From the NCBI RefSeq assembly GCF_021228235.1, contig NZ_JAJQRG010000002.1, forward strand, positions 558,001 to 622,000: a DNA stretch of 64,000 nucleotides, in the 5' to 3' direction. Shown piece after piece: positions 11,739-17,856 of the stretch; position 1 is the first letter of the stretch; the number at the start of each line of letters is the position of its first letter. The notes below the pieces were generated by a model, which ran no database searches, had not been told where the DNA came from, and saw nothing but the letters and a program-made list of their open reading frames with translations. This DNA comes from Pseudophaeobacter flagellatus. Lineage in GTDB: Bacteria; Pseudomonadota; Alphaproteobacteria; Rhodobacterales; Rhodobacteraceae. A program made the position numbers and the translations under genes.

Positions 11739-12500
11739 TCAGATGTTGGCGCGACGATAGCGCGCAAAGGTCAGATCGCGGAGTATCACCTGGTTCATGT
11801 CCGGCGCTTCAAAGATGAGATCCAGCCAGATCCGCTCGATGCGCTTTTCGTTCAGGGTGGAATAGGCGAGGTCGTATTCGACGGTGACGTTTTTTTCACC
11901 CAGGGGCAATTCGCGCACCAGCTGTTCGGTATTGGGCCCGTTGCGAATGTTCAGCCGGGCAAAGATCTCCAGCGGCTTTTCGCTCTCTAGGATGGCGTCG
12001 ACACGGATCAGGTGATGCCGGGCAAGGTTGGTACAGGCTTCGGGCGGCAGATCCACCACCAGCGACAGGAAAGAGCCGTCAAACTTGAACACATCCATGC
12101 GCAGGCCAAAAGGCGCCAGATCTTCTTCGCGGCTGTTACGTAGCTGGCGCAGGGTCAGTTCGGAAATGCTGCAATCATGGAACAGGCTGACCTCTTCGCC
12201 GAGCCTGGATTTCGACGGCACCGAAGACAGCCCCGGAGCAGGCAGCGGCCCGCGCCAGAGCTCTGGTCGCCAGGACCAATCGGTGCCATGCGGGCGGGGA
12301 AAGGCGGAAGTACCGATCTGCGGCAAGGCCAGGCGTCCGTCTGCGATATGGATCAGCCGGTCCAGCTGGCCATGCAGGGCGCGCGCCTGATTGCGCTGCT
12401 GGCGCAGCTGCGGCAGCGCCATGGTTGCGGCCTGCGCCACTTCGCGCCGCCAGCGGCGCAGCGCCTGCCAGTGAAACACCCTGTTCAATAAACCGCCCAT
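11739..12500 (-). CDS. Conserved hypothetical protein (possibly DUF6478 family)
   Basis: 253 residues, soluble, no signal peptide. The N-terminal 60 residues are basic and helical (RRWRREVAQAATMALPQLRQ), followed by a conserved-looking block DWSWRPELWRGPLPAPG and a C-terminal beta-rich half (FDGSFLSLVVDLPPEA, RIWLDLIFEAPDMNQVILR). I recall similar Rhodobacteraceae proteins carried as DUF6478, but the assignment is from memory of sequence style only. A carbohydrate-binding-like or membrane-associated role is conceivable but unsupported. Co-directional with the downstream 126-residue gene and with the upstream lipoprotein gene. Confidence 0.68.
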   Translation of the reverse strand: MGGLLNRVFHWQALRRWRREVAQAATMALPQLRQQRNQARALHGQLDRLIHIADGRLALPQIGTSAFPRPHGTDWSWRPELWRGPLPAPGLSSVPSKSRLGEEVSLFHDCSISELTLRQLRNSREEDLAPFGLRMDVFKFDGSFLSLVVDLPPEACTNLARHHLIRVDAILESEKPLEIFARLNIRNGPNTEQLVRELPLGEKNVTVEYDLAYSTLNEKRIERIWLDLIFEAPDMNQVILRDLTFARYRRANI

Positions 12501-13764: not shown

Positions 13765-16700
13765 ATGCCATCAACGCTGTTTTTGTTTATCTGGCGCTAT
13801 TCCAAGCGGCAGCAGCTGGGTCTTCTGGGGCTGACGCTGCTGATCTTTCCCTTTCTCTATGCCGCCTTGGAACTGCCCAAGCGGATCATCAATGATGCCA
13901 TCGGCGCGCCGGAACCCATTATTATGGTCTGGGGCCATGAGATGAGCCAGGTCAGCTATCTGCTGGTGCTATGCTGTGGGTTTCTGGCGGCAGTTGTGGT
14001 GTCCGGGATGCTGAAGATGCGGCTGAACACCGCCAAGGGCGTGGTGGCGGAACGGCTGCTGCGGCGGCTGCGCTATAGTCTGATCAGCCGGATGATCCGC
14101 TTTCCCAAGCCCTATTTCCGCACCACCAGCCAGGGAGAGCTGGTGTCGATGATCACCTCGGAAAGCGAACCGATGGGCGGCCTGATGGGCGATGCGCTGG
14201 CGCAGCCGGTGTTTCAGGCAGGGCAGATGCTGACCATCGTGGTCTTTCTGTTCATGCAAAGCGTCTGGTTCGGGCTGGTGTCGATTGCGCTGATCCCATT
14301 GCAGGCCTGGCTGATCCCGCTGTTGCAGCGCCAGATCAACCTGCTGAACAAAGAGCGCATCCAGGAGGTGCGCGCCCTGGCCGCTGAAATCGGTGAAACC
14401 GCCGCCGGGATCTCTGATTTGCGGGGCAATGGCGGCTGGCGTTTCCGTCTGGCGCAGATCTCGGATCGGCTGGGGCGCTTGTTTGAAATCCGTCGCCGGA
14501 TCTACAACAAGAAGTACTTCATGAAGTTCCTCAACAACCTGATCGGCCATATGACACCCTTTGTGTTTTATTCCGCTGGTGGGGTTCTGGCGATCCGTGG
14601 CGAAATCACCGTCGGCGCGTTGGTGGCGGGGCTTGCGGCCTACAAGGATCTTTCGGCCCCCTGGAAAGAGCTTTTGACCTATTACAACCAGGTGCAGGAC
14701 ATGGGGCTGCGCTGGTCGATCATGACTGAACGCTTTGCGCCCAAGGGCATGATCGATGCGGCCCTGATCGAGGGCATGCCCGATGATCTGCCGCATCTGC
14801 GTGGCGATGTGGTGTTTCGCAATGTGTCGCTGCGCGATGGCGATGGCAATATGGTGCTGGAAGATCTCTCGTTCACCATTCCCGAAGGTGCGCGGGTGGC
14901 GGTGCAGGCCAGCACTGATGCCGAGCGCAGGGCCTTTGCCCAGTTGCTGACCCGTGACGTGCTGCCGACGCGGGGCTCTATTCTGCTGGGCGGGCACCGG
15001 CTGGAGGCGCTGCATCAGGGGGTGATTGCAGCACGTGTTGGCTATGCCTATTCGCAGCCCTATCTGTTTGATGGCTCGCTGGGGGACAATGTGCTGATGC
15101 CGCTGCGTGCGACGCCACAGCTGCCACGGCCTTCGGTGCGGACCCAGCGTCAAATCACCGAGGCTGGCCGCGCTGGCAATAGCACTGACCCGCTGGAGGC
15201 GGATTGGGTCAATCCGGCGCTTGCCGGGCTGGGGTCCGAAGGCGATCTGCGCGACTGGTGGTTCCAATTGATAGAGGCCATGGGCGTCGATCAAGAACTG
15301 TTCCGCCGCACCCTGAAGACGCAGTTTCAGATCGGCAGCCATCCGGCGCTGGAACAACAGATCGTGGCACTGCGGCCACTGATCAAGCAGCGGCTGATGG
15401 CGGCGGGGCTGAACAGTGTGGTGCATCACTTTGACCCAGAGAGCTTTCATCCGGCGGTGCCCCTGGCCGTCAATATTCTGTTTGCCGCCCCTCGACGAGA
15501 AATCTCCCCCGAAGAGCTATTGGCGCCGGGGCGGCTGTTTTATCAGGTGATTCAGGATCAACATCTGGAAACCGAGACCCTGGGCATTGGCCTTGGCGTG
15601 GCAGAGATCCTGGTCAAGACCTTTGGCCGCGACAACTATGACCATCCGCTGTTCCAACGGCTTGGCCTGGATGAAGCGCTTTATGCCCGCCTGTGCAGCG
15701 CCGTTGAGGAACACACCGCCCTGCAAAGCCAGTCGCCCGTGTCGGCCGAAGGGCTTAGCGAAGCGGCGCGGGCGAGCTTGATGACCATTCCGTTTTTGCT
15801 CTCGGCTGAGCAGATCGGCCCCGGTTTCCCAAAAGGGTTCAAGGCGCGCATTCTGAACATTCGCGCGACCATTGGTGCGGCCTTGCGGGCGCGCTCTGGC
15901 GGGCTGTTTGTGCCGCTGGACCCGGCGGCCTATGTGCCGCGCCTCTCGGTGCTGGAAAACGCGCTTTATGGAAAAATCTCGCGCCATGCCGGCAACAAGG
16001 CGCATCAGGTCGAAGCCCTGGTGAGCGAGGTGATGACCGAACAGGGGCTGAACAAACGGTTGGCGCTGATCCTTTACGATCTTCCCTCTGGGCTGGGCGG
16101 GTCGCTGTTGGACCCGATGTTCCGCGAGCGTGCTGCCTTTACCCGCGCGGCGATCAAACGCCCCGATATCCTGATCCTGGATCGGGCCCTGGCCAGTCAT
16201 GATTCTGCCAGCCGCCTGCGCACCCGCGACCGGCTGCGCGATTTGCTGCCCGCCAGCACCATGATCTTTATGGAGGATGAATTCCGCCACCCAGAGCGCT
16301 ACGACCTGTTTGTCGAGATCCGCGATGGCCGCATAGACGGGGTTGAACGGCGGATGGATCCCAGCCCCGAGGGGCTGGCGGCAGAGGATTTCCGGCAAAA
16401 AACCGAGGTGATTGCCCGCGCCGATCTGTTTGCGCAGCTGGACACCCGCAACCAGCGTCTGCTGGCCTTCTCCGCCCAGTGGCACCGGGTGGCAGAGGGG
16501 GAGCTGGTGTTTGCCCAAGGCGAAAGCGGCGATGCCGTCTATCTCTGTCTGGAGGGGCGGGCAGAGCTGTTCTGGCCCGAGGCCTTGGGCGGTGCTGGCG
16601 GCGTCGGCGCGGTGCCAGTGACCGTGATCGAGCCGGGCCGCTTGATTGGCGATCTGGCCGTGATCTTGCAGCAGCCGCGTGAAATGGACCTGCGCGCCGT

Positions 16701-16941
16701 GGTCGACTGCCTGTTTCTGCGCATCGGGGCCGAGGAATATCGTGCGGTGATCGAGAGCGATGCCCGGGTAGCGACCCAGTTGCTTGAGACGGTTGCGGGA
16801 CATTTGGTGGGCCTGGCAAAACAGGTGCGGCTTGCCGGGTTTCCGATGGCAGAGGGGCTGGAGGTTGCAGTCTTTCCCGTTTCGGGCTCTGGTGCGTCTG
16901 GCGCGGATGATCCCGGATCTTCCGACGCGCCGGACAGATGA
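13765..16941 (+). CDS. ABC-transporter-like protein with degenerate ATPase and cNMP-binding domain
   Basis: 1058 residues. Residues about 1-310 resemble an ABC exporter membrane domain with several hydrophobic segments (LGLLGLTLLIFPFLYAAL, VSYLLVLCCGFLAAVVVSG). Residues about 347-810 resemble a nucleotide-binding domain starting VVFRNVSLRDGDGNMVLEDL, but Walker A is replaced by VAVQASTDAERRAF (no G-x4-GK), the signature by LPSGLGGSLLD, and Walker B reads ILILDRAL with Arg in place of the catalytic Glu. About 270 residues of unknown helical sequence are inserted between the two halves of this domain (about 445-715). Residues about 880-1015 form a Crp-like cyclic-nucleotide-binding domain (GELVFAQGESGDAVYLCLEG, then RLIGDLAVI). 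It is most likely not an active ATPase transporter but a membrane scaffold or sensor. The CPBP protease gene follows 24 bp downstream. Confidence 0.85.
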   Translation: MPSTLFLFIWRYSKRQQLGLLGLTLLIFPFLYAALELPKRIINDAIGAPEPIIMVWGHEMSQVSYLLVLCCGFLAAVVVSGMLKMRLNTAKGVVAERLLRRLRYSLISRMIRFPKPYFRTTSQGELVSMITSESEPMGGLMGDALAQPVFQAGQMLTIVVFLFMQSVWFGLVSIALIPLQAWLIPLLQRQINLLNKERIQEVRALAAEIGETAAGISDLRGNGGWRFRLAQISDRLGRLFEIRRRIYNKKYFMKFLNNLIGHMTPFVFYSAGGVLAIRGEITVGALVAGLAAYKDLSAPWKELLTYYNQVQDMGLRWSIMTERFAPKGMIDAALIEGMPDDLPHLRGDVVFRNVSLRDGDGNMVLEDLSFTIPEGARVAVQASTDAERRAFAQLLTRDVLPTRGSILLGGHRLEALHQGVIAARVGYAYSQPYLFDGSLGDNVLMPLRATPQLPRPSVRTQRQITEAGRAGNSTDPLEADWVNPALAGLGSEGDLRDWWFQLIEAMGVDQELFRRTLKTQFQIGSHPALEQQIVALRPLIKQRLMAAGLNSVVHHFDPESFHPAVPLAVNILFAAPRREISPEELLAPGRLFYQVIQDQHLETETLGIGLGVAEILVKTFGRDNYDHPLFQRLGLDEALYARLCSAVEEHTALQSQSPVSAEGLSEAARASLMTIPFLLSAEQIGPGFPKGFKARILNIRATIGAALRARSGGLFVPLDPAAYVPRLSVLENALYGKISRHAGNKAHQVEALVSEVMTEQGLNKRLALILYDLPSGLGGSLLDPMFRERAAFTRAAIKRPDILILDRALASHDSASRLRTRDRLRDLLPASTMIFMEDEFRHPERYDLFVEIRDGRIDGVERRMDPSPEGLAAEDFRQKTEVIARADLFAQLDTRNQRLLAFSAQWHRVAEGELVFAQGESGDAVYLCLEGRAELFWPEALGGAGGVGAVPVTVIEPGRLIGDLAVILQQPREMDLRAVVDCLFLRIGAEEYRAVIESDARVATQLLETVAGHLVGLAKQVRLAGFPMAEGLEVAVFPVSGSGASGADDPGSSDAPDR

Positions 16942-16965: not shown

Positions 16966-17856
16966 ATGAATGCAGAATCCGCCTATCGGGCGCATGAAAC
17001 CCTGGTGGCACCGGGGCGGGCGAAATCCCATATCTGGCGGATACTGGCCGGGCTTGGCATCATTGCAGGTGTCAGCTACGCGCTGAACCTCGGGGCCTTT
17101 TTACTGATTCTGCAGCTGACCTCTGCGGCGGATCTGGCATCCGTGGTACAGGGCAGCACGCCTGCGGCGATGCTGCTGGTACTGGTGACCTTTGGCTTTA
17201 TGGCGCTGGGGGCCGGCTTGGCGGCGCGGCTGTTGCAGGGGCGCTCTTTTGTCAGCCTGATCGGGCCGCTGGTGCCGATGCTGCACCAGTTTACCCAGGT
17301 CTTTTTGCGGTTGCTGATTGTCTTTGGCATCGTGCTGTTGCTGCCGCCTTATGATTTTGGCGCGCCGCTGGTGCCCAATGTCGCGCTGCCGCTCTGGCTG
17401 GGGCTGCTGCCACTGTCGCTTTTGGCGGTTTTGGTGCAGGTCAGCGCTGAAGAAGTGGTGTTTCGTGGCTATCTGCAACAGGCGCTGGCGGCGCGATTTC
17501 AAAATCCGTTGATCTGGCTGCTGCTGCCTGCGGCGCTGTTTGGGCTGGCCCATTACATGCCGCAAGAGGCGGGCGACAATGCATGGCTCTTGTGTCTGTG
17601 GGCCATGGGCTTTGGCTTGGTAACGGCAGATCTGACCGCGCGGGCCGGCACGCTTGGCCCGGCCATTGCGGTGCATTTCTTTAACAATATTGTTGCCTTG
17701 CTGATTGTGGCATCGCCTAGCAGCCTGAACGGGTTGGGGCTTTACCTGCTGCCCTATGATCTGTCGGATGTGGCAGGGTTGCGGCCCTGGCTGCTGGTGG
17801 ACTGCGCTACCATGCTGGTGGCCTGGCTAGTGGCGCGACTGGCGATACGGCGCTGA
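16966..17856 (+). CDS. CPBP family intramembrane metalloprotease
   Basis: Multi-pass membrane protein (296 residues, about eight hydrophobic segments) of the CAAX-protease/bacteriocin-processing (CPBP, ABI) family. The diagnostic residues are present: Glu162-Glu163-x3-Arg167 (SAEEVVFRGYL), His196 (FGLAHYM), and His237 with Asn240/Asn241 (HFFNNIVAL). These form the glutamate/histidine active site of type II CAAX prenyl proteases. The substrate is unknown in bacteria of this group. It starts 24 bp after the ABC-like protein and shares its strand, so the two are probably co-expressed and may act together at the membrane. Confidence 0.88.
   Translation: MNAESAYRAHETLVAPGRAKSHIWRILAGLGIIAGVSYALNLGAFLLILQLTSAADLASVVQGSTPAAMLLVLVTFGFMALGAGLAARLLQGRSFVSLIGPLVPMLHQFTQVFLRLLIVFGIVLLLPPYDFGAPLVPNVALPLWLGLLPLSLLAVLVQVSAEEVVFRGYLQQALAARFQNPLIWLLLPAALFGLAHYMPQEAGDNAWLLCLWAMGFGLVTADLTARAGTLGPAIAVHFFNNIVALLIVASPSSLNGLGLYLLPYDLSDVAGLRPWLLVDCATMLVAWLVARLAIRR

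Follow-up and report, generated by a model that had tools for sequence, protein, structure and literature searches.

Sequence analysis of an ABC-exporter-like protein family of Alphaproteobacteria with lost ATPase motifs, a triplicated nucleotide-binding-domain segment and a cNMP-type partner

Results

A degenerate exporter-like protein

The stretch of DNA analysed here (the window; 64,000 nucleotides of Pseudophaeobacter flagellatus, positions 558,001 to 622,000 of contig NZ_JAJQRG010000002.1, assembly GCF_021228235.1) carries an open reading frame (ORF) at 13765-16941 (+), opened by ATG, whose 1058-residue product resembles an ATP-binding cassette (ABC) exporter with degenerate ATPase motifs, three Q-loop/helical segments in its nucleotide-binding domain (NBD) and a cyclic nucleotide monophosphate (cNMP)-binding domain at its C terminus. 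All features of this protein are given below in residues and in window positions on the same strand. The Pfam model ABC_membrane (PF00664) matched residues 51-290 (E 4.9e-19; 69.5 bits against a cut-off of 28), within an exporter-type transmembrane domain (TMD) that spans residues 1-335 (13765-14769), and cNMP_binding (PF00027) matched residues 908-999 (E 1.8e-11; 44.3 bits against a cut-off of 27.5), within a Crp-like domain of residues 890-1010 (16432-16794). These matches bear out an original prediction, made from the sequence of the window, that the protein keeps an exporter-like membrane domain and carries a Crp-like one. The ABC_tran model reached only E 0.019 in the window protein, under its cut-off. 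In phmmer searches, solved exporters (bacteriocin transporters, TM_0288 and MsbA) aligned with the protein as far as residues 443-458, which places an NBD N-lobe at residues 345-416 (14797-15012). Residues 771-857 aligned weakly with the signature-to-H-loop part of solved exporters, and the C-lobe was assigned to residues 801-870 (16165-16374); the middle stretch was unmatched. Conservation is highest in the membrane domain, whose mean identity to 57 fused Rhodobacteraceae members (those with the cNMP domain in the same chain) is 76%, as compared to 46-60% for the other domains. Measured against four close orthologues, the ratio of non-synonymous to synonymous substitution rates (dN/dS) was 0.043-0.231 in every folded domain (0.043-0.105 in the TMD), consistent with purifying selection.

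Loss of ATPase motifs across the family

When the protein is aligned with its family, residues 382-389 (14908-14931), the Walker A slot, read ASTDAERR in place of GxxxxGK[ST], with the glycine, the lysine and the serine/threonine each replaced. The signature slot (residues 782-788) reads LDPMFRE in place of LSGGQ, and the Walker B slot (residues 803-807) reads LILDR, in which Asp806 is kept and the catalytic glutamate has become Arg807. These three replacements had been predicted. An H-loop histidine was not seen at the aligned position of the window protein.

A motif census was performed on 107 distinct proteins, defined by distinct C-termini among ORF matches above 600 bits; the cut loci L086 and L088, TMD-only proteins and L127-type proteins were left out. 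Its 61 Rhodobacteraceae proteins comprise the 57 fused members and four of a ~900-residue type (L039-L042). The Walker A lysine was present in 0/61 of these and the catalytic glutamate in 0/61, while the signature serine was found in 4/61; the motif losses are therefore conserved in orthologues, which the original prediction had put forward as a check. Relatives outside Rhodobacteraceae retained more: the Walker A lysine in 24/46, the catalytic glutamate in 20/46 and the Walker B aspartate in 12/46. The residue after the lysine was glutamate or aspartate in 17 of the 24 and serine in two, and a lysine followed by serine or threonine occurred in 2/46. Lysine, aspartate and glutamate were found together in three of these relatives (L093, L124 and L153), two of which (L124 and L153) also have the Walker A serine. 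The full set of scored canonical motifs was present in 0/107 proteins. On a quick-method tree of the ABC part, which included 72 of the 107 proteins, presence of the Walker A lysine changed at least nine times.

It had also been proposed that orthologues with an intact Walker A and glutamate would mean that the copy in the window is simply decayed. This condition is borne out in half: L124 and L153, from outside Rhodobacteraceae, have the Walker A lysine and serine and the Walker B aspartate and glutamate, but the loss is common to Rhodobacteraceae and not the decay of a single copy. The two proteins show where the lineage came from. As read from these alignments, the ATPase motifs have been lost along a lineage, and the loss is common to a bacterial family.

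Three copies of the Q-loop/helical segment

The original prediction described a 270-residue insertion in the protein. An extra stretch is indeed present (~290 residues by repeat register), but it consists of the Q-loop/helical segment of the NBD itself in further copies, and at the level of sequence is better read as a tandem internal duplication that added two copies to give three in total. In place of the single segment expected of an NBD, profile comparison with a shuffle control distinguished three repeats, whose bounds are approximate: R1 (residues 417-545; 15013-15399), with a Q-loop strand, an xxDNxL motif (N442) and helices; R2 (residues 546-706; 15400-15882), with N570; and R3 (residues 707-800; 15883-16164), with N732 and the degenerate signature. 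The three asparagines are kept in 105/107 (N442), 107/107 (N570) and 107/107 (N732) relatives, and the stretches that bear them resemble the exporter Q-loop and the subsequent 'ENI.YG' segment.

When the repeats were compared as hhalign profiles, each against 40 column shuffles, R2 and R3 matched with P 2.1e-15 (score 85.2 versus at most 21.9 in shuffles), R1 and R2 with P 3.9e-6 (39.1 versus at most 20.5), and R1 and R3 with P 6.4e-6 (36.0 versus at most 15.5). Against an ordinary-exporter profile, built on 27 loci of which several are duplicates or close orthologues, region 400-545 (R1) corresponded to canonical NBD columns 59-107 (P 2.8e-14) and R3 plus the C-lobe to columns 76-232 (P 5.7e-34), so that columns 76-107 are present at least twice. 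The similarity extended to the helix past the ENxLFG segment for R1 versus R2 (score 37.2, with shuffles no higher than 16.5) and partly so for R1 versus R3 (21.4 versus 13.0 shuffled). Each repeat may fold as a full helical subdomain. Insertion of a foreign domain was rejected, because the middle stretch matches the NBD's own segment in the profile comparisons and shuffles.

The triplicated segment is also present in relatives with better-kept motifs, and so probably predates the loss of the ATPase motifs. Triplicated NBD segments were likewise seen in L127 (3473-6025), L128 (3635-6589) and L131 (5453-8296), which have a divergent membrane domain and belong to one other family of the class. 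We know of no other case of a triplicated Q-loop/helical segment in an NBD, and none turned up in the open literature searched; it would be an unusual NBD architecture.

The cNMP domain is fused in some members and separate in others

The cNMP domain of the window protein is matched by a protein kinase A chain (E 1.6e-10). The arginine and the glutamate of the phosphate-binding cassette have roles in cyclic-nucleotide-binding domains; in the cassette of the window protein (residues 958-975), Arg972 is kept and the usual glutamate is Asp963. The cassette arginine was found in 57/57 fused Rhodobacteraceae domains, and the glutamate in 12 of the 57. In the tree subset, the proteins with aspartate form the window's branch of 13, and those with glutamate form the other branch of eight plus the uncertainly placed L077.

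Non-fused relatives are ~900 residues long and lack the cNMP domain. In 42/44 of them, a separate same-strand cNMP ORF lies downstream at a median gap of 22 nt, within 100 nt in 38 of the 42. This count excludes the truncated membrane-domain fragment L147 from the cNMP model, and gives the same result with it. In L119, one of the two non-fused relatives lacking a counted partner, an overlapping ORF does match the cNMP model. The cassette of the separate partner is mostly canonical, with the glycine in 42/42, the glutamate in 38/42 and the arginine in 41/42. The separate partner in L132 (5206-5652) matches PDB 5d1i, a solved stand-alone 'Cyclic nucleotide-binding protein' (E 1.7e-21). On the tree, the transition between fused and separate cNMP domains is a single change, as counted over 60 rows with 12 rows marked 'none seen' left out. 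Taken together, these comparisons indicate a long-standing partnership of the ABC-like protein with the cNMP domain, which is fused here and separate in many relatives.

Distribution of the family

Homologues of the ABC-like gene were detected at E<=1e-60 in 83/292 genomes of the order. Because no more than two candidates per genome were scored in this and in the class and phylum searches below, copy numbers are lower bounds; two family matches were obtained in 59 of the 83 positive genomes, and in the genome of the window the second member shows 49% identity across nearly the full length. No fewer than five of these second matches fall outside the other full-length group, being TMD-only (G064, G181, G193 and G137) or ~900 residues long (G203). 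In a congener (G097, locus L201), the window's gene is absent and its flanking genes are present, which reflects either loss or original absence. Across the class, a profile of 37 members matched at E<=1e-40 in 132/385 genomes from 88/277 genera, a number that takes in partial and membrane-domain-only matches. In a draw from the phylum, 32/398 genomes matched, 31 of these from this class. Plasmid records with members include Ruegeria, Sulfitobacter, Azospirillum, Rhizobium, Sinorhizobium and others, with a member in the laboratory roseobacter Ruegeria sp. TM1040, and no relative was confirmed in the viral contigs searched.

In Sinorhizobium meliloti RCAM1750, the corresponding gene pair is annotated as 'ABC transporter ATP-binding protein' and 'Crp/Fnr family transcriptional regulator', is flanked by two methyltransferase genes and lies ~2 kb from a glycosyltransferase gene. 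The homologue on pSymB of S. meliloti 1021 is in two pieces in two overlapping frames (L161, 11962-14713) and may be broken or misread, whereas the match is unbroken in other S. meliloti records. The S. meliloti locus tag SMb20813, which may correspond to the family gene, is given in PMC10945364 as an msbA homologue. No publication in the open literature searched was recognised as describing the family.

TMD-only relatives were found in 16 further loci. No NBD ORF was seen in 15 of the 17 TMD-only stretches scanned, two of the stretches being short. TMD-only proteins of ~400-465 residues with an extra N-terminal stretch occur in L043-L047, L141 and L152, where nearby genes are, by eye, cupredoxin-like, multicopper-oxidase-like or cytochrome-c-like; the NBD-less membrane domain possibly has a copper-related role there.

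Neighbouring genes

The names of neighbour clusters come from a single scanned representative per cluster or were given by eye, and the greedy ORF maps miss genes that lie under longer antisense ORFs, as seen for the CPBP gene in L062 and L067. Glycosyltransferase-cluster genes were present within four genes of the family gene in 26/38 non-fused loci outside Rhodobacteraceae. Their representatives are a group 1 glycosyltransferase (best NCBIfam model EpsE, under cut-off) and one of GT28 C-terminal type.

At L124 3818-4741 and L153 4047-4880, an ion-channel gene and a gene for an Apyc1-like metallo-hydrolase precede the fused gene in both loci. The ion channel was scanned in L124 and the hydrolase in L153 (PF23023, 6.1e-29); these upstream genes are a possible cyclic-nucleotide module. 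A hydrolase of another cluster lies near the non-fused L132-L134 and L040, and for its L132 copy RNase Z gave the top score and a cyclic-nucleotide phosphodiesterase model a lower one, none of them reaching its cut-off. In L039, L042 and L075, the family member has near it another ABC protein and a gene that by eye is HlyD-like, possibly a type I secretion setting.

In the window, a gene for a CPBP (Rce1-like) intramembrane protease adjoins the ABC-like gene at 16966-17856 (+; PF02517, 4.1e-17), as the original prediction had noted. Upstream, a DUF6478 protein (PF20086, 3.3e-126) is encoded at 11739-12500 (-) and is part of the same conserved block.

Discussion

A proposed ligand-controlled protein of exporter fold

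In the reading that we favour, and which we think could as readily be wrong as right, the window protein is a ligand-controlled, non-hydrolysing protein of exporter fold that works with its cNMP domain, in a family that extends through the alphaproteobacterial class. The conserved motif losses and the purifying selection make a non-hydrolysing exporter derivative the best reading, in keeping with the prediction that the protein evolved from a transporter. The Rhodobacteraceae proteins have lost the residues with which ATP is bound and hydrolysed, while their membrane domain is the best preserved part. In the window protein, the Q-loop/helical segment is carried three times, and a cNMP unit that is separate in many relatives is fused to the chain. 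Such a protein would be expected to dimerise like other exporters and to be unable to hydrolyse ATP. The enlarged NBD could then serve as a coupling platform between the cNMP domain and the membrane domain, through which the ligand state (cyclic AMP (cAMP), cyclic GMP (cGMP) or another nucleotide, for example guanosine tetraphosphate (ppGpp)) would be passed on, and the membrane domain might gate a passage or a flippase, or present a docking surface. Judging by the glycosyltransferase genes near many non-fused relatives, the ancestral protein probably exported or flipped a glycan or glycolipid under the control of a nucleotide. More tentatively, and in our view doubtfully, control may have moved from ATP to a signalling nucleotide: the ATP site would have been dismantled, the segment triplicated as a transmission platform and the cNMP domain fused, to yield a ligand-gated, non-hydrolysing device.

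Several results weigh against the favoured reading. The cassette of the window protein reads PREMD at the arginine and has lost the Thr-Ala past it, and 45/57 fused Rhodobacteraceae domains, including this one, have aspartate for the glutamate; given Asp963 and the lost Thr-Ala, cNMP binding may be weak or gone. The Walker B aspartate, which a nucleotide-free NBD would not need, is kept in 52/61 Rhodobacteraceae proteins. R2 alone matched the ordinary NBD profile weakly (P 4.5e-4), and the helix past the ENxLFG segment was unsupported for R2 versus R3 (12.8 versus 12.3 shuffled), so that the repeats may not all be full helical subdomains. The C-terminal tail is weakly constrained (dN/dS 0.40-0.80 versus three orthologues; dS was saturated for the fourth). 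Glycosyltransferase-cluster genes were near 0/37 fused loci, where L123 is counted as fused because it and the fused L095 are one gene; this speaks against the glycan link. AlphaFold models were poor both for the full-length protein (mean predicted local distance difference test score, pLDDT, 52.9; predicted template-modelling score, pTM, 0.28), which was discarded, and for the NBD only (mean pLDDT 63.2; pTM 0.39). Searched against the PDB, the NBD-only model retrieved ABC proteins, but with query-normalised TM-scores of at most 0.29 among the matches listed, and is therefore uninformative on the repeats.

Alternative explanations

The protein could still be an exporter, which acts as a heterodimer with an active ABC protein or through ATP binding without hydrolysis, and which the cNMP domain only tunes. 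The strongly conserved membrane domain and the kept Walker B aspartate are consistent with this, and the two family matches seen in most positive genomes of the order could pair. We nevertheless consider it rather unlikely, since both Rhodobacteraceae paralogue groups are without the Walker A lysine and the catalytic glutamate and so neither could make up for what the other's sites lack in the ordinary manner, an arrangement that is thereby disfavoured. Moreover, the second match is in several genomes not from the other full-length group, the congener G097 has a single full-length member, and no active ABC partner gene recurs beside the family gene in the ORF maps.

A membrane scaffold or assembly factor that functions without ligand gating, with the exporter fold as a docking platform and the cNMP-like domain as a structural relic, is less probable again. 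The original prediction had named a membrane sensor or scaffold as a possible role. The altered cassette on the window's side of the tree and the existence of TMD-only relatives would fit such a role. By contrast, the invariant cassette arginine, the glutamate retained in the other 12 fused proteins and the near-universal cNMP partner of the non-fused branch argue for a domain that is more than a relic.

The original prediction drew attention to the CPBP protease, and the ABC-like protein might act as its partner, for example as an adaptor or substrate presenter. In ORF maps, the two genes are adjacent in 15/19 fetched loci of the window's paralogue group, with two more adjacencies from coordinates (G228 and G233). 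However, CPBP (E<=1e-25) is found in 224/292 genomes of the order versus 83/292 for the ABC-like gene, and the CPBP-accD-folC order, like the DUF6478 gene, is kept in 9/9 fetched Rhodobacteraceae loci that lack the ABC-like gene, so the adjacency looks like synteny only. ORF maps also placed CPBP beside 0/12 loci of the other paralogue group and beside no locus outside Rhodobacteraceae. The protease is probably a syntenic neighbour and not a functional partner, and we give the partnership very little credence.

Decay of an ordinary transporter, as might be suggested by the better-kept motifs of L093, L124 and L153, by a partial second match with two stops in G150 and by the two overlapping frames of both L086 and the S. 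meliloti 1021 homologue, is the least credible explanation of all, given that the motifs are lost in 61/61 Rhodobacteraceae proteins that are each a long single frame, that every folded domain has a dN/dS well under 1 and that the gene is matched as a single piece in other S. meliloti records.

Comparison with known systems

The family presents a series of states, from near-complete through partly lost to fully lost motifs and on to NBD-less membrane domains. Because these states sit on related membrane domains, what the ABC exporter fold can do without ATP becomes directly testable. The near-constant cNMP partner likewise offers a way to study the control of an envelope function by nucleotides in Alphaproteobacteria, S. 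meliloti among them.

Compared with MsbA, TM0288 and PCAT1-like exporters, the window protein aligns in the membrane domain and the NBD N-lobe and differs in its lost motifs, its threefold helical segment and its cNMP domain. The MsbA model TIGR02203 matched residues 40-444 with 7.2e-36, far below its equivalog cut-off (123.8 versus 602 bits), and an ABC-type bacteriocin transporter among the solved structures matched with 4.8e-26. Another transporter, of a different fold, has also recruited a cNMP-type domain. The nearest tested precedent that we found for such a domain on an ABC exporter is HetC of Nostoc PCC 7120. HetC is reported to be a peptidase-containing ABC exporter whose ATPase catalytic residue is essential; its cNMP-type domain is reported to bind ppGpp in vitro and to be needed in vivo (PMC10986499). 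The ligand of the window family, on this precedent, need not be cAMP. In HetC, as described there, the cNMP domain is N-terminal and a C39 peptidase is present, whereas in the window protein the cNMP domain is C-terminal, the catalytic glutamate is absent and a Pfam scan at E up to 1 returned no peptidase family.

Among ABC proteins, CFTR and the sulfonylurea receptors have become a ligand-gated channel or a regulator and have degenerate NBD sites. They belong to the eukaryotic ABCC proteins, have two NBDs and lack a cNMP domain, so the likeness is one of analogy and not of kinship. If control in the window family has moved to a signalling nucleotide, the family would be a bacterial counterpart, in principle, to these ABC proteins turned channels or regulators.

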